From positions 744,001-808,000 of the forward strand of contig NZ_VCJR02000002.1 in NCBI RefSeq assembly GCF_009712425.2: a stretch of DNA of 64,000 nucleotides. The letters are read 5' to 3'. The notes beneath the pieces are model-generated. The model ran no database searches, was not told the DNA's origin, and saw only the letters and a program-made list of their open reading frames with translations. The stretch comes from Aquisalinus luteolus (GTDB lineage Bacteria; Pseudomonadota; Alphaproteobacteria; Caulobacterales; Parvularculaceae). The translations under genes were made by a program, and so were the position numbers. Positions within the stretch are counted from its first letter, which is position 1. Every line of letters begins with the position of its first letter. This document shows, one piece after another, positions 13,434-19,130 of the stretch.

Positions 13434-14072
13434 TCAGCCTTTCAGGCTCTTGATGTAGTCCTTGATCTCGCCGTCTTCGGCATTGGCGAAGAAATACTCA
13501 TCGAACTTCTCGCCCGCGATGGCGGATTTCAGCAGGTCCTGATCGATATTCTTCAGGATCGTCAGCATGTCCTGCGTCGCGACGGCTTTGACCTCGTTCA
13601 GGATGCCGCGGTTCTTGGCCATGATCGCGGCGCGCTCTTTCGGGTAGCCGACACCGCGCTCGACCTCGAACAGCTTGCGATAGCAGTCCTGCAGGTTCAG
13701 TTCCGCCGCCCAGCCAAAGCCCTTGGCGTATGGCATGGCGATGGCGTTGCCGTCATTGATCTGGCCGAACAGGAAGGCATCCGTCGGGTCGATGACGAGG
13801 CCGCAGACCACGTTCGGCATGGCGTTGCAGGCGAGCATGGACCCCATGCCCGTGCCGCAGCCGGACACGATGAAATCGGCGGCCTTGGTATTGATCAGGA
13901 TACCGGCAAGAATGCCGTTCATGATATAGGTCAGGGAGGCATCATCCTCCGGCCCGTACATGCCATAGTGAAAGACCTCGTGGCCCAGCGGCTCGCAGAC
14001 GGTGGTCAGCGCCTCATGGACGATGCTCGCCTTGGCGGCCTGGCTGTTTTCGATGATGAGAGCGACTTTCAT
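13434..14072 (-). CDS. RpiB/LacA/LacB-family sugar-phosphate isomerase
   Basis: 212 residues, longer than typical RpiB (about 150) because of a C-terminal helical extension (from about residue 145). The N-terminal Rossmann-like strand MKVALIIENSQAAK and the GCGTGMGSMLACN segment around residues 71-83 match the RpiB/LacAB pocket, including the conserved cysteine. It should isomerise an aldose and ketose phosphate; the longer members are not ribose-5-phosphate enzymes for certain. A near-perfect LacI-type palindrome lies 49 bases before its ATG, implying sugar-responsive repression. Confidence 0.88.
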   Translation of the reverse strand: MKVALIIENSQAAKASIVHEALTTVCEPLGHEVFHYGMYGPEDDASLTYIMNGILAGILINTKAADFIVSGCGTGMGSMLACNAMPNVVCGLVIDPTDAFLFGQINDGNAIAMPYAKGFGWAAELNLQDCYRKLFEVERGVGYPKERAAIMAKNRGILNEVKAVATQDMLTILKNIDQDLLKSAIAGEKFDEYFFANAEDGEIKDYIKSLKG

Positions 14073-14120
14073 GGGAAATTCCTGTCTGTTTCCGTGTGGT
14101 TTTCCGTTGGTTTCGGGCGC

Positions 14121-14138
14121 AATGTAACCGGTAACATT
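14121..14138 (-). promoter_or_regulatory. LacI/GntR-type operator upstream of the isomerase gene
   Basis: AATGTAACCGGTAACATT is palindromic at 16 of 18 positions. It differs by a single base within the core from the ATGTTACCGGTAACAT operator I know for the E. coli LacI-family gluconate repressor GntR. It lies 49 bases upstream of the ATG, where a repressor would block the promoter or early elongation. No LacI-family gene is in the window, so the regulator is encoded elsewhere. Confidence 0.65.
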
Positions 14139-14308
14139 CGCAATTTCAACGGATGGAAGGGGGATATTACGGGGGTTTTATGTGTGGGGAGAGATGTTTT
14201 ACCGGCCTTCCTCGACAATTTCGGCAGAATCCGCCTTACAGGCCTTGGCGAGACACTTCCTGCGCCAAGAGCGCCGCGAGCGAGATGCTCGAAGCGTCGA
14301 AAGAAACC

Positions 14309-14339
14309 CGCCTTCGCCAAGGCTACGGCGAGGCAAGGA
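14309..14339. repeat. dispersed extragenic repeat (GCCTTCGCCAAGGCTACGGC type)
   Basis: The string GCCTTCGCCAAGGCTACGGC, followed by GAGGCAAGG, is a familiar extragenic repeat in alphaproteobacterial genomes. It contains the short inverted repeat CCTTCGCCAAGG. It is not protein coding here. Confidence 0.5.
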
Positions 14340-14692
14340 GGGGGCCCGTGGAAGCGCTACCGGCTCCATAAGCAAAATTCATAAGTGTAGGTAGCCTCAC
14401 GCTCCGCCTTTTTGCTCAGGGGGGCGATGTTCTGGTGCGGGGCCGATACCCAGCTCTCCCGTCCGGGGCGCTAAACCCCGGAACACCGCTCCGGTGGACG
14501 ATGCGAAGCTTGCGCACACCCTCGATTGCCACCGGAAACCTGATGAGTGGCACCCGCCTTCAGGACAAGGCGAGGCAAGCCACCCCATCGGCCCGGTCCT
14601 GTGCCGGGCCTGCCGGGGAGAGTAGCGGCGGCGGTGGTGGCGGGGATAAGTTTTGGGGAGTGAGGAGTTTTTGGTTTGCAGGGCCCTCACCC

Positions 14693-14736
14693 AAAATCCG
14701 CCAAAGCGGATTTTGACCTCTCCCACAGGGAGAGGT
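14693..14736. repeat. double-hairpin extragenic palindrome
   Basis: Two adjacent perfect stems: AAAATCCGC (14693-14701) with GCGGATTTT (14706-14714), then ACCTCTCCC (14716-14724) with GGGAGAGGT (14728-14736). This arrangement is common in proteobacterial extragenic repeats. Confidence 0.7.
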
Positions 14737-14806
14737 GGGGCATCGCACGGATATCTGTAATTCGCGCCTTGCCTCTTCCCTTTTTGCTTATGGGGGGGAG
14801 TGGTCG

Positions 14807-14827
14807 GAAAATGCGCCAGCATTTTTC
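14807..14827. repeat. hairpin repeat with GAAAATGC arms
   Basis: GAAAATGC at 14807-14814 pairs with GCATTTTTC at 14819-14827 around a four-base loop. It is probably part of the same extragenic repeat family as the hairpins about 80 bases upstream. Confidence 0.5.
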
Positions 14828-14909
14828 GGGTGAGGGGTAAGGATGATGCATTGCTGCTCTTTACAGCTAGAAGTAATATTATGCAGGATCATTTTGGGGA
14901 ACACACCGC

Positions 14910-15134
14910 ATGACCGGTCTCATTCTGACAGTTATTATTTTTGCAGCGGTCATGTTTCTGCTCTTTGGCCCCCAGAAATTCAGCCTTATGCGGCGACAAC
15001 ATTGTTCCGAGTGCGGCACCATTTTGCCATTCCCGCGCAAGCCGGCATCGTTCCGGCAGGCGATGTGGGGCGGGTGGATCTGTCCGTCCTGCGGTACGGA
15101 AGTCGATGGCCGGGGCCGGAAGATAGAAAAGTGA
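14910..15134 (+). CDS. small membrane protein with a zinc ribbon
   Basis: 74 residues. A single hydrophobic helix (about residues 2-20) is followed by two CxxC pairs, CSEC near residue 32 and CPSC near residue 58, which should bind one zinc ion. GGGGAA lies about ten bases before the ATG. It is not a known family to me; the composition argues for a real protein rather than a chance frame, since the paired cysteines are correctly spaced. It stands between repeat blocks with no clear operon partner. Confidence 0.65.
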   Translation: MTGLILTVIIFAAVMFLLFGPQKFSLMRRQHCSECGTILPFPRKPASFRQAMWGGWICPSCGTEVDGRGRKIEK

Positions 15135-15151
15135 GCGTGTTCGTCGTGATC

Positions 15152-15233
15152 GTAGGGTGCATGAAGCCGAAGGCGTAATGCACCGGTGGTTGGCTCGGCA
15201 TGGTGCATTGCCCTGACGCTCCATGCACCCTAC
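15152..15233. repeat. inverted-repeat extragenic element A (GTAGGGTGCATG arms)
   Basis: The ends are a perfect 12-base inverted repeat, GTAGGGTGCATG at 15152-15163 and CATGCACCCTAC at 15222-15233. The arms extend to imperfect pairing of about 32 bases (inner ATGCACC and GGTGCAT). The element has the layout of a small mobile-derived repeat with no coding capacity. Confidence 0.75.
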
Positions 15234-15252
15234 GCGAGATGCCGCGTGAGAG

Positions 15253-15346
15253 CGTAGGGCGGGTAGAGCGAAGTGACACCCGCCGGTCCGAGACGCGGCG
15301 CCCTCATCGATGGCGGGTATCGCCTGACGGCTCCACCCGCCCTACG
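15253..15346. repeat. inverted-repeat extragenic element B (GTAGGGCGGGT arms)
   Basis: Left arm 15253-15284 and right arm 15312-15346 pair imperfectly over about 32 bases, with GTAGGGCGGGT and ACCCGCCCTAC at the tips and ACACCCGCC with GGCGGGTAT inside. It resembles element A in tip sequence (GTAGGG) and design and lies only 19 bases from it, directly beside the end of the dCTP deaminase gene. Confidence 0.75.
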
Positions 15347-15371
15347 GCGTGAAGTGCCATTTCTGCCGGAA

Positions 15372-16943
15372 TTATTTTTTGTCAGTGACGTCTGCTGACG
15401 AGTGTTGCTTAAGCTTTTGAGATAGTGCTGAAACTAATAAAACTTCAGCTTCGAAATAGGCTGGAAAATAAACCCTTATCATTGGTCGTTTATCGCCCAT
15501 GTGCCACTCTTGTGCTTTGCCAGATTTCTTACGCTTCCCCTTTTCAAACAAATCTCTGTATCTATATGGAGATATACCTGTAAAGGGTCTGAATTTCACT
15601 TTATTTGTGGGATCTTCTTCGTCCAAATCTATGGAATCTGAGTGTAATTCTTTTGCATAGCTTTTGGGATATGGTTCAATAAAGACCACTTCTTTTATGC
15701 CAGCGCCGACTATATGCTTGGCACATAAATGACAAGGAAATGTCGTTACGTACATCTTTGATCCTCTCAAAGATATTCCTTTGCGTGCGGCGTCGGTAAT
15801 AGCACACATTTCAGCATGTATAATTCGACCGAATTCAATCAAATCCATGACTTTAGACTCGGAGATGCCAGTCAAGGTTTCATTCTCTAAAAGCTTCTGC
15901 AATATATCTGTTGAAGCTTTTTCTTTTAGTAAGGCATCAGACAAATCCCCGTTGACACGTAATCTATCTATAATGTCCACGATGATTTCTTTTTTTATGC
16001 GGTCATTTGGGTCTTGTCCAAATGTGAAGTCGCGTGCGTCTGGTTTGTATTCTTCCCAGTAAGTTCCACCTCCGGCCTTTGGAACTTCATTGCATCCTAG
16101 TGTTTGTACCTCTGTGTATTCAGAAAAAATTGCCGCACCGACCTGTCGTGAAAGGTCGGAGGATCGGAGAGAGGCAGATTTTGCAGTGTACATGCCGTAT
16201 TCGTCACGAGTCGGGCTGATCTGATTGTTGCCAAAGAAAACGGATATGAAGCGATTTAAGGTCTTCTGACATGTTGATTTTGTCGTAGCATCAATGAAAA
16301 CATCACCTAAGGGAAATGCATCATTTACATTTTGTCCGTGTGCAGATTCTATCTCTCTTTCGTCTTTTTGAATTATGCTATAGGCTTCAGAATGAACCTC
16401 TTGTTCAGGTGTTAGGCCTCCAAGAGATTCCCGCTGCTTAGATTCAATGTTACGGAGCCGAGATTTTGGTGGTGCGTATGCTGATATAAGAATGAATTGC
16501 CGGCCGTAAACGCTACGCAGCAAATTTACTTCTTCAGGTCGTTTTAATTGCCTTATGATGTAAGCTTGCCGTTGCACTGGTGTTTCCGCCAAATTAATTT
16601 CTGGAGACACATTTACGCTAGCGGTTTTGTGTATTTCTTGTCTAAGAGATCGAATTGCGCTGATGGCTAATACTGACATGACATCGTCTCCGTATCGAGA
16701 GCGGAGATCGTTAGCGTATTCAATCTTTCCATTATAGGCAGATACATGACTCGATGTATCGATGCTTACCTCCGATGGAATTTCCTTCATGAGGTCAGTG
16801 AGTTTCAACAGCTCGCTTTTGTAGCCCATGGTGGACAACTCATCCTCGAGCTTGTCACTAACTAGGCCTAAGTCGACCCCTATAGGAGCTATTAATCCGA
16901 AAATTAGCTCGGGGAATTCCTGTTGTGGGAGCTCGAAATTCAT
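15372..16943 (-). CDS. anti-phage dCTP deaminase (P-loop-like plus zinc deaminase domains)
   Basis: 523 residues. The C-terminal half is a zinc-dependent nucleotide deaminase: HAE at residues 376-378 (His zinc ligand, catalytic Glu378) and PCHLC at 403-407 (Cys404, Cys407). The N-terminal half starts with a P-loop-like turn, GLIAPIG (16-22), without the usual Lys-Ser/Thr. This two-part design matches the defence dCTP deaminases reported to deplete dCTP during phage infection, rather than short housekeeping dCMP deaminases. The gene is clearly AT-richer than its neighbours and sits alone between repeats and ubiD, which suggests horizontal gain. The start has AAGGGATT upstream. Activity on dCTP is inferred from the family. 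Confidence 0.88.
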   Translation of the reverse strand: MNFELPQQEFPELIFGLIAPIGVDLGLVSDKLEDELSTMGYKSELLKLTDLMKEIPSEVSIDTSSHVSAYNGKIEYANDLRSRYGDDVMSVLAISAIRSLRQEIHKTASVNVSPEINLAETPVQRQAYIIRQLKRPEEVNLLRSVYGRQFILISAYAPPKSRLRNIESKQRESLGGLTPEQEVHSEAYSIIQKDEREIESAHGQNVNDAFPLGDVFIDATTKSTCQKTLNRFISVFFGNNQISPTRDEYGMYTAKSASLRSSDLSRQVGAAIFSEYTEVQTLGCNEVPKAGGGTYWEEYKPDARDFTFGQDPNDRIKKEIIVDIIDRLRVNGDLSDALLKEKASTDILQKLLENETLTGISESKVMDLIEFGRIIHAEMCAITDAARKGISLRGSKMYVTTFPCHLCAKHIVGAGIKEVVFIEPYPKSYAKELHSDSIDLDEEDPTNKVKFRPFTGISPYRYRDLFEKGKRKKSGKAQEWHMGDKRPMIRVYFPAYFEAEVLLVSALSQKLKQHSSADVTDKK

Positions 16944-17044
16944 AACAAATTGAATCCCTTAGCAAAAAGCGGTCGAAAACTTATTACATCTATAGACAGG
17001 AGAATCAATTTTTTTTAAAGTCTATTACCAATGGGAGGTTCCTT

Positions 17045-17209
17045 ATGTCAGCACAAAGAAAGCTTCAGCGAGGCTGGTTGCAACGTGACGCAGACGTCGC
17101 TTCGAGAAGGGTGATTTCAATTCTCCCAAAGATCGAAGTTTCTCGTAAAGCCAATCAGGTGCTGACTTCAAAAGAGATGAGACCGGCGGGAAAAGATAAT
17201 CAGAAGTGA
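17045..17209 (+). CDS. possible small basic protein next to the deaminase
   Basis: 54 residues starting at an ATG preceded by GGGAGG with good spacing. It is rich in Arg and Lys (MSAQRKLQRGWLQRDAD at the start) and has no recognisable domain, signal or membrane helix. It lies in the same AT-rich islet, divergent from the dCTP deaminase with about 100 bases between starts, and ends six bases from the ubiD stop on the other strand. It could be a truncated leftover of a transferred gene or a chance frame. Confidence 0.3.
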   Translation: MSAQRKLQRGWLQRDADVASRRVISILPKIEVSRKANQVLTSKEMRPAGKDNQK

Positions 17210-17214
17210 TATAA

Positions 17215-18771
17215 TCACCAAATCCCTTTCCCGGTCCCCGGCAACCCCAGCTCCCCCCACATCTCGTCCACCTTCTTGACGACATCCTCGTCCATGCGGA
17301 TTTCCTCGCCCCATTCGCGTTTGGTCTCCGGCTCCCACTTGTCGGTGGCGTCGAGCCCGATCTTGGAGCCTAACCCGCTTTCGGGGCTGGCGAAGTCGAG
17401 ATAGTCGATGGGGGTGTTCTCGATCACGGTGATGTCGCGGGCCGGGTCCATCTTGGTGCTGATCGCCCACATCACGTCGGCCCACGAGCGGGCGTTGATG
17501 TCGTCATCGACGACGATCACCCACTTTGTGTACATGAACTGGCGCAGGAAGCTCCACGCGCCCATCATCACCCGCTTGGCGTGGCCGGGATAGGCCTTCT
17601 TCATACTGATCACCGCGATCCTGTAAGAGCAGCCCTCCGGCGGCAGCCAGAAATCGGTGATCTCCGGGAATTGCTGCTGGAGGAGGGGGATGAACACCTC
17701 GTTCAGCGCCTCGCCCAGCACGCTCGGCTCGTCCGGCGGGCGGCCGGTGAAGGTCGACAGGTAAACCGGCTCGCGGCGCATGGTGATCGCGGTGACGGTG
17801 AAGACGGGGAAGCGCTCGACTGAATTGTAATAGCCGGTGTGGTCGCCATAGGGGCCCTCATCGGCATAATCGGTGAGGGAGACATGACCCTCCAGCACGA
17901 TCTCCGCCTCGGCGGGGACCTTCAGCGGCACGGTCTTGCAGTCGACCAGCTCAGCCTTCTTGCCACGGAGCAATCCGGCGAACTGGTATTCCGACAGCGT
18001 GTCGGGCACGGGGGTGACCGCGGCGAGGATGGTGCCGGGGTCGGCACCGAGCACGGCGGCGGCGGGCAGGGGCTCGGTCTTTTCCTTGCCCCAGCGGCGG
18101 TGATGCTGCGCCCCGCCGCGATGGGCGAGCCAGCGCATGATGGTCTGGGTCTTGTTCAGCCGCTGCATGCGATAGATGCCGAGGTTGAAATTGTCCTCGC
18201 GCTTGTCTGACGGGCCGCGGGTGACAATCAAGGGCCAGGTGATGAGCGGCGCCGGCTCGCCCGGCCAGCAGGTCTGGATGGGGAGCCGGGTGAGATCGAT
18301 GTCGTCGCCCTCCAGCACCACTTCCTGGCACGGCGCGGTGCCGAAGGATTTGCTGCCCGGCTTCATGGCGAGGACCTGGCGGGCGAGCGGCAGCAGGTCG
18401 AGCGCGTCCTTGAGGCCCGCCGGCGGCTCCGGCTGGCGCAGGAAGGCAAGCGTCTCGCCGACCTCGCGCAAATCCTTCGCCTCGGTGCGGATCTCGTTAC
18501 CCATGGTGACGGCGAGGGCGACGCGCTTGACCGTGCCGAACAGGTTGACGAGGACCGGGATCGGCGATGGCTCGCCATTGTCGAGCACCGGCTTTTCGAA
18601 CAGCACGGCGGGCCCGCCCTCGGCCAGCAGGCGGGTCTGGATCTCGGTCATCTCCAGCACTGTGGATACCGGGTGGCTGACGCGCACCAGCTCGCCCTCG
18701 CGCTCCAGCATGTCCATGAAGTCGCGCAAGCTGCGATAGGGGCCGTGTTTGGATGGTTTGCTGTCAGCCAT
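17215..18771 (-). CDS. ubiD: UbiD-family decarboxylase (4-hydroxy-3-polyprenylbenzoate decarboxylase)
   Basis: 518 residues, close to E. coli UbiD (497). It removes the carboxyl group of the polyprenyl-4-hydroxybenzoate intermediate in ubiquinone synthesis, using prenylated FMN. Diagnostic segments are [22 protein letters not shown] and [12 protein letters not shown]. The start at 18771 was chosen over an 85-codon upstream extension, because that extension reads through a palindromic repeat. No ubiX or other ubiquinone gene is nearby, so the cofactor must be made from elsewhere in the genome. Confidence 0.92.
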
Positions 18772-18866
18772 GATCTGCCTTCTTGTTAGATGGTTCATAT
18801 CTAACGGGTTTTGGCCGTGAGGGAAGGGGCGGGAGTGTCGCGTTTCCGGGTGCGGTGGGTGTTTCA

Positions 18867-18944
18867 CCGGCTCGAGATTGTCAAGGAGCGCAGCCCGGCT
18901 CCGCCGGCGGCCTTTCAGGCCGTCCTTGACTATCCCGATCCGGT
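18867..18944. repeat. imperfect inverted repeat upstream of ubiD
   Basis: CCGGCTCGAGATTGTCAAGG, extended by one A (18867-18887), pairs imperfectly with TCCTTGACTATCCCGATCCGG (18923-18943), including a perfect GTCAAGGA/TCCTTGAC core. The centre holds a GC-rich spacer (CGGCCTTTCAGGCCG). It fills the region between ubiD and the lipoprotein gene together with the next palindrome; this 359-base gap has no gene that I can support. Confidence 0.65.
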
Positions 18945-18960
18945 AAAACAATGGCTCACC

Positions 18961-18993
18961 AAGCCTGTAAGGCAGAATCTGCCTTACAGGCTT
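18961..18993. repeat. perfect 16-base palindrome with one-base centre
   Basis: AAGCCTGTAAGGCAGA (18961-18976) is followed by a single A and then its exact reverse complement (18978-18993). Such a near-zero-loop palindrome would form a cruciform rather than a terminator and has no T tract. A related string, CGCCTTACAGGCCTTGG, occurs near 14230, suggesting a dispersed family. Confidence 0.8.
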
Positions 18994-19130
18994 CGGTTGA
19001 CCAGATAGGGGACGTATCGCGAGCACGATTTTGCGGCGGCTCCCGAAATTTCCCTGACCCGTTTTCCGCTTCCATCACGCTTACCCCAGTGGAGAGAGTG
19101 CCTTTGCGCCACGAAACCGGGAGGGTCCCC

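Follow-up and report, generated by a model that had tools for sequence, protein, structure and literature searches.

The locus and its setting

Within the window (the whole 64,000-nucleotide stretch of Aquisalinus luteolus DNA analysed here), an AT-rich islet carries the gene for an anti-phage dCTP deaminase and, divergent from it, a second predicted gene at 17045-17209 on the plus strand, absent from the listing in the preliminary description of this DNA. The features of the islet are as follows.

15372-16943, minus strand: anti-phage dCTP deaminase, 523 aa, ATG start (NCBIfam NF041025, PADLOC dCTPase, Pfam dCMP_cyt_deam_1)
15504-16217, minus strand: C-terminal zinc (d)CMP/dCTP-deaminase domain, residues 243-480 (VIA-align)
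15723-15737, minus strand: PCHLC zinc motif, residues 403-407; P403, C404, H405 and C407 invariant in 71 rows
15810-15818, minus strand: HAE catalytic motif, residues 376-378, invariant in the 71-row alignment
16233-16907, minus strand: predicted N-terminal adenylate-kinase-like domain (P-loop kinase fold), residues 13-237 (AF2 model, VIA-align)
16869-16898, minus strand: residues 16-25, GLIAPIGVDL, a degenerate P-loop of the kind usual in subtype I, no Lys-Ser/Thr
16944-17044, no strand: region between the two divergent start codons, 101 nt, with one weak promoter-like site at 16993-17021 (plus strand)
17033-17038, plus strand: Shine-Dalgarno GGGAGG, 6 nt before the small gene's ATG (read from the sequence)
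17045-17209, plus strand: predicted divergent small protein gene, 54 aa and stop (profile search, clade counterparts, alignment, AF2 helix)
17210-17217, no strand: islet edge, the small gene's stop lying 5 nt from the ubiD stop codon at 17215-17217 (read from the sequence)

The end point given previously for the islet, 17214, includes 271 bases beyond the deaminase start. The islet had been placed between extragenic repeats and ubiD, and this setting holds: ubiD (17215-19026, minus strand; three Pfam UbiD domains) adjoins it on one side and repeated DNA lies on the other. The repeated DNA (15150-15371) has at least two match rows elsewhere in the genome and at least 11 in the sister genome G004 (both strands, at most 40 candidates per genome scored); 14224-14838 has more repeat copies than this. 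The islet had also been called AT-richer than its surroundings, and its GC content is indeed 0.419 for 15372-17214 (0.420 for the deaminase gene) versus 0.609 for the rest of the window, where other 1843-base stretches, taken at 100-base steps, go no lower than 0.564.

Other repeats occur nearby. Close to the 5' end of the ubiD ORF, at about 18842-19009 of the window, lies a repeat of some 145 bp, for which this genome gives 53 additional match rows and G004 gives 10 (both strands counted). The Rfam Whalefall-1 RNA model matches at 14683-14738 on the minus strand with 42.3 bits (gathering 37). With 150 candidates scored per genome, Whalefall-1 has at least eight matches in this genome (three over the cut-off), at least 13 in G004 (five over) and none in the four other congeners; several matches form close opposite-facing pairs, so that the element behaves as a dispersed paired repeat.

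A comparison with sister genomes for an empty site had been proposed, and no clean empty site was found in G004, the nearest relative (89% identity in ubiD). When the G004 contig is read as circular, the corresponding ubiD end is joined there by a different AT-rich stretch, about 1.4 kb long (junction from contig 1 end to base 450, L073/L065), and the ORF beside ubiD there (L065, 110-445) has no Pfam match. Judging from these two genomes and the circular reading of the G004 contig, the site at the ubiD end may accept foreign DNA repeatedly. In the four other congeners ubiD alone aligned in the stretches compared, two of them short contigs, so these alignments define neither a target duplication nor an exact insertion point. 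Gene order around the islet differs in G004, where the copies of ubiD and of an RpiB-like gene (window 13434-14072, minus strand) lie far apart.

Identity and structure of the deaminase

Judged by its profile matches and predicted fold, the islet's deaminase belongs to an established class of defence genes, and the preliminary description read it correctly. Its 523-residue length and the HAE (376-378) and PCHLC (403-407) motifs are as described for the ORF at 15372-16943 (minus strand), and H376, A377, E378, P403, C404, H405 and C407 do not vary among 71 aligned rows. The two best profiles for the protein are NF041025 (anti-phage dCTP deaminase equivalog; 474.2 bits versus a curated cut-off of 400, with positions 1-437 of 437 covered) and PADLOC dCTPase (540 bits), and Pfam recognises the (d)CMP deaminase zinc region, dCMP_cyt_deam_1. 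In this profile search, which had been suggested as a check, the anti-phage model is best and the housekeeping-type dCMP deaminase TIGR02571 (ComEB) stays below its cut-off, with 51.7 bits versus 219.45. Depletion of dCTP is an established phage defence of the dCTP deaminase family.

The two-domain design behind the original family call, a P-loop-like domain followed by a zinc deaminase, agrees with an AF2 model built on 71 homologues (mean pLDDT 93.6), which has a kinase-like and a dCMP-deaminase domain. Residues 13-237 align with the adenylate-kinase-related 3h0k (VIA-align Z 16.4, rmsd 2.1, 168 residues aligned), and residues 243-480 align with human dCMP deaminase 2w4l (Z 18.4) and with PBCV-1 dCMP/dCTP deaminase 7fh4 (Z 16.1).

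The P-loop had been singled out for lacking the usual Lys-Ser/Thr. The absence is real, but as a peculiarity of this protein the observation does not stand: none of the 101 proteins in the deaminase tree carries GxxxxGK[ST] in its N-terminal 150 residues, and lysine occupies none of the last three P-loop positions in the 97 of these whose loop could be located. A P-loop without lysine is therefore a family trait and implies nothing special about the window's deaminase. One E. coli plasmid member outside the 101-protein set has the loop GAIGSGVKTL, whose lysine is displaced by one position from the standard spacing. Two subtypes, I and II, make up the family, and the tree separates them (SH-aLRT 99); it omits L129, L135, L138 and L145, in which the deaminase is cut or broken, and L012 and L056, two of the 14 subtype II loci. 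Subtype II has GSGxS-like loops and a DxRC...CxN cysteine pattern in 12 of 12 rows, whereas subtype I, to which the window's protein belongs, has mostly GPIGVDL-type loops and lacks these cysteines in 11 aligned rows.

Distribution of the deaminase

The deaminase gene is absent from all five congeners searched, and matches at E ≤ 1e-30 occur in 12 of 398 genomes of the order, the own genome included. In one genome of the same order (G543) the deaminase locus is identical to that of Hellea balneolensis (Alphaproteobacteria, Maricaulales; loci L048/L143). This patchy presence supports gain of the deaminase by transfer. The recent gain proposed earlier does not follow from composition: in 60 of 74 loci the GC content of the deaminase gene falls short of the flanking DNA by 0.05 or more, so low GC is common to the lineage and by itself neither shows nor dates a recent gain.

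A single-protein scan of viral contigs with the deaminase, which detects close relatives only, gave no match. In phage records, among the matches listed of 1,236, two cover at least 80% of the query, both in short metagenomic 'Bacteriophage sp.' records, and the remaining 18 are confined to deaminase residues 296-477. The homologous loci compared below draw on the best 80 of 481 relatives, and the sample therefore leans towards the window's kin.

The divergent small gene

When a six-row HMM of its nearest group, built with the window excluded, was run on the 644 small ORFs of the window, the window's 54-aa ORF ranked first (E 2.1e-4, 17.1 bits; next 0.1). In a larger ORF set it scored E 0.0025 at first and 7.5e-4 after one iteration, a weak family match. 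G10, W11, D15 and A19 are common to all nine rows of the nearest group. An AF2 model of the small protein, made from nine sequences (mean pLDDT 71), predicts a single helix at residues 11-36 with a loose tail and no helix-turn-helix. A minus-strand ORF at 17043-17285, which starts inside ubiD, was set aside for the plus-strand gene because the latter has relatives.

Six small proteins compared with Pfam, NCBIfam and PADLOC matched no model over its cut-off. The matches below cut-off are DUF802 in Pfam (E 0.06) and the RNA-binding YhbY in NCBIfam, which one small-protein group resembles at E 0.0064 (17 versus 78.5 bits); PADLOC gave nothing. The small proteins of 15 Rhizobium-type loci, compared with PHROGs, matched seven families with one member each (best E 0.0074).

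Selection in relatives indicates that the small ORF is a protein gene, the window copy having no relative close enough for a codon test of its own. Over 36 pairs of relatives, aligned as proteins and selected for amino-acid identity of 45% or more, pN/pS is 0.17-0.65, and in each pair it is the third codon position that holds most of the differences. Many of the pairs have a locus in common, however, and their synonymous sites are close to saturation; the cleanest, L087/L088 (85% identity), has pS 0.58 and pN 0.10.

Pairing of the two genes

An initial tblastn search of the 54-aa ORF against 92 homologous loci gave weak matches (best E 0.029), about nine of them at the same place and in the same orientation, and a list of divergent ORFs contained one upstream of the deaminase in most loci. 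Profile HMMs from five small-ORF groups were then run on all 7,706 ORFs of 25-130 aa in 93 loci, the window included. Members at E < 1e-3 occur in 47 of the 93 loci; the seeds were chosen by eye with motifs seen in the ORF list, and the independent part of this result consists of the non-seed members and of genomes G945 and G950. Among the 7,706 ORFs, one off-position match at E < 0.01 came up before iteration (L131, E 0.0068), and iteration left none. By sequence the small proteins fall into several groups, which the profiles do not link with one another. A motif count (22 of 72 versus 25 of 3,934 background ORFs) is given no weight, since it was made once the sequences had been seen.

Position was scored separately by a mechanical rule, which accepts a divergent ORF of 40-95 aa that begins with ATG 30-130 nt upstream of the deaminase and is preceded by a Shine-Dalgarno-like tetramer. 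With four of the 93 loci omitted for having less than 400 nt upstream, the rule is positive in 63 of 89 subtype I loci versus 4.0 ± 2.0 in dinucleotide shuffles (200 rounds, maximum 9). Applied to other genes of the same loci, it is positive in 8 of 234, or 6 of 146 with open upstream DNA. The rule finds nothing in the 14 subtype II loci, and the five small-gene profiles, run on 131 small upstream-divergent ORFs of these loci, reach a best E of 0.059. In basal subtype I (14 rows, one too short) the rule is positive in one of 13 testable rows (L141).

The window's deaminase falls in a clade of 75 rows (SH-aLRT 97), of which 72 have enough upstream DNA; in L133, L137 and L149 this DNA and the deaminase N-terminus are missing. 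Counterparts of the small gene occur in 70 of the 72 testable rows (69 of 71 distinct), 20 of them recognised by position alone. The profiles account for 47 and the rule for these 20, giving 67; a further three come from direct comparison, namely L125, which matches the L122 copy at E 3.5e-8, and the identical loci L048 and L143, which match the L051 copy at E 1.8e-10. The two exceptions, L093 and L132, have an intact deaminase and an ABC-ATPase-like frame in the slot (by eye), so the small gene is not strictly needed there. Conversely, in L135, L138 and L145 the deaminase frame is shifted or stopped internally and the divergent small ORF is still open.

Several individual loci are of separate interest. 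In the Pararhizobium gei plasmid record, the slot holds a hypothetical protein that RefSeq annotates as divergent to the deaminase and that the four profiles run on it did not recognise. On a Zymomonas plasmid (L155, 2600-2896, minus strand), the slot divergent to the dCTP deaminase is filled not by the usual small gene but by a 99-aa ORF in which a SWIM zinc finger is recognised (E 2.4e-5, over the cut-off). On an E. coli plasmid (L157, 2712-2897, plus strand), a 61-aa hypothetical gene is annotated immediately upstream of a subtype II deaminase and in the same orientation, a place in which the RNA AvcI (see below) might be expected.

Linkage extends to whole genomes. The 15-row Rhizobium-type profile gives exactly one match per genome in 15 of 15 whole genomes, always at the deaminase-side small ORF as placed by contig ranges, and 14 of these genomes supplied rows to the profile. 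Among 247 genomes of the Rhizobium-type family, with at most 24 candidates per genome scored, the profile matches in at least seven, and the deaminase occurs at E ≤ 1e-30 in 15. Six of the seven matches adjoin the deaminase, including those in G945 and G950, both outside the profile; the seventh (G954) covers 23 positions at E 5e-4 in a genome without the deaminase. Nine deaminase-bearing genomes gave no match to this one profile at the same scoring depth. Distances between small proteins and between deaminases are correlated over 47 loci (Mantel r 0.79, with none of 2000 permutations as high), a correlation that shared descent of the pair alone can explain.

Proposed function of the module

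With its divergent small gene the islet becomes a two-gene module, and it is this gene that deserves following up. The preferred reading, to which a probability of roughly 0.5 is assigned, is that of a dCTP-depletion module in which a small helical protein restrains the deaminase. The pairing itself is observed; the more specific proposal that the small protein is an inhibitor of the enzyme is advanced at somewhat under even odds. The broadest version is held yet more tentatively: one Alphaproteobacteria-wide deaminase lineage would be controlled by a dedicated divergent small protein, rather than by an AvcI-type RNA, and infection would lift the inhibition.

In the proposed mechanism, the deaminase would combine a kinase-like sensing or regulatory domain with the zinc deaminase domain. 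Upon phage infection it would turn dCTP, and probably dCMP too, into a dU form, and this conversion would starve phage replication. The small gene occupies the place beside the enzyme that in Vibrio and E. coli relatives belongs to the inhibitory RNA AvcI. In healthy cells the small protein most likely would bind the deaminase via its helix and hold the enzyme off; during infection the small protein or its synthesis would be lost, freeing the deaminase. The predicted single helix without a helix-turn-helix would fit a binding peptide better than a repressor. We infer that the module works in this host.

Inhibition is the simplest reading of the slot, the pairing, the co-inheritance and the three loci that keep the small ORF beside a broken deaminase. 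Against it stand L093 and L132, with an intact deaminase and no small gene, and the divergent layout, which is unusual for an antitoxin, as antitoxins are normally co-transcribed with their toxins. The same loci bear on an unlikely alternative, in which the small protein would act as phage sensor or activator, detecting an infection cue and switching the deaminase on. Linkage to the effector would suit such a role, as would a sequence that changes fast around short conserved cores, but the protein is very small with one predicted helix, the partner in the known relative (AvcID) is an inhibitor, L093 and L132 retain an intact deaminase without the small gene, and three loci retain the small gene with a broken one. 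That the small gene is a passenger without a role beside an ordinary single-gene dCTP deaminase system is improbable. The profile libraries do model the deaminase as a single protein, and by the same rule the small gene is missing from subtype II and nearly so from basal subtype I; within the clade, however, pairing is near-universal, the two genes are co-inherited, and the 15 genomes searched contain no further small-protein match.

The region between the genes bears on the remaining alternatives. Spacings of about 100 nt between divergent genes are typical of regulator/target pairs, and the 101 nt found here would accommodate a small protein acting as transcriptional regulator of the divergent promoter. 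A short intergenic stretch also looks conserved in the Rhizobium-type group (by eye, with no statistic). This role is nonetheless doubtful, a step below the sensor in plausibility: a DNA-binding fold is not predicted, and in the other aligned groups the intergenic region is poorly conserved, with no clear operator. The promoter scan of 16944-17044 found one site versus 0.5 expected by chance, which is not evidence of a promoter. AvcI lies upstream of avcD, and the 271 upstream bases could instead be an AvcI-like inhibitory RNA on the deaminase strand, the small ORF being incidental. Their length would suit such an RNA, as AvcI, which is adjacent to avcD (excerpts of PMC12409362), has a transcript of just under 300 nt and a functional minimum of about 171 (excerpts of PMC10511110). 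Set against this are the codon-level selection in relatives on the opposite-strand ORF and the predicted folding of 16944-17214, which does not stand out on the deaminase strand (z -1.5) or on the other (z -1.4). Within 14000-18500 Rfam gives a single match at E ≤ 1, and it falls outside the islet, a result that bears on AvcI only if Rfam models it. An RNA of this kind is given little credence, and the restraining small protein remains the preferred reading.

Comparison with known systems

The deaminase resembles the proteins behind NF041025 and PADLOC dCTPase in its full-length match over cut-off, its HAE/PCxxC motifs and its kinase-like and deaminase domains. It differs in subtype, with a GPIGVDL-type rather than a GSGxS loop and without the DxRC...CxN cysteines present in all 12 subtype II rows, and its locus adds a divergent small gene outside the Pfam, NCBIfam and PADLOC cut-offs (six proteins tried). 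The fold of residues 243-480 is shared with the human and T4 dCMP deaminases and the PBCV-1 dCMP/dCTP deaminase (Z 15.7-18.4), whose solved chains consist of the deaminase domain alone (140-173 residues). The fold of residues 13-237 is shared with the Sulfolobus adenylate-kinase-related 3h0k/3lw7 (Z 16.4), whereas the window's P-loop lacks GxxxxGK[ST]. Like protein (type II-like) toxin-antitoxin systems, the locus has an adjacent small gene with protein-level selection in relatives (pN/pS 0.17-0.65, 36 pairs); unlike them, its genes are divergent and do not form one operon.

Among the matches listed from the open-licence PMC literature (titles and abstract openings; the two 2022 founding papers fall outside this scope), no protein partner of dCTP deaminases is described. 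The excerpts of PMC10511110 and PMC12409362 explain how such a deaminase is kept silent before infection for one branch only, the RNA-controlled AvcID: in Vibrio and E. coli, the RNA AvcI from the neighbouring locus inhibits AvcD until a phage stops host transcription. If the preferred reading is correct, a conserved protein partner would explain regulation in a second branch, the dCTP deaminase would be redrawn as a two-gene system in Alphaproteobacteria, and annotation tools would have a new component to seek; the small gene and the deaminase are two short genes, directly testable in the laboratory. The closest comparison is thus with AvcID, to which the effector is homologous by family and in which a small regulatory locus likewise adjoins the enzyme. 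In 16944-17214 no special RNA structure was found, and the neighbour is predicted to be protein-coding and lies on the opposite strand. On the preferred reading, the islet would be a version of such a system that is regulated by a protein, where the known one has an RNA antitoxin.
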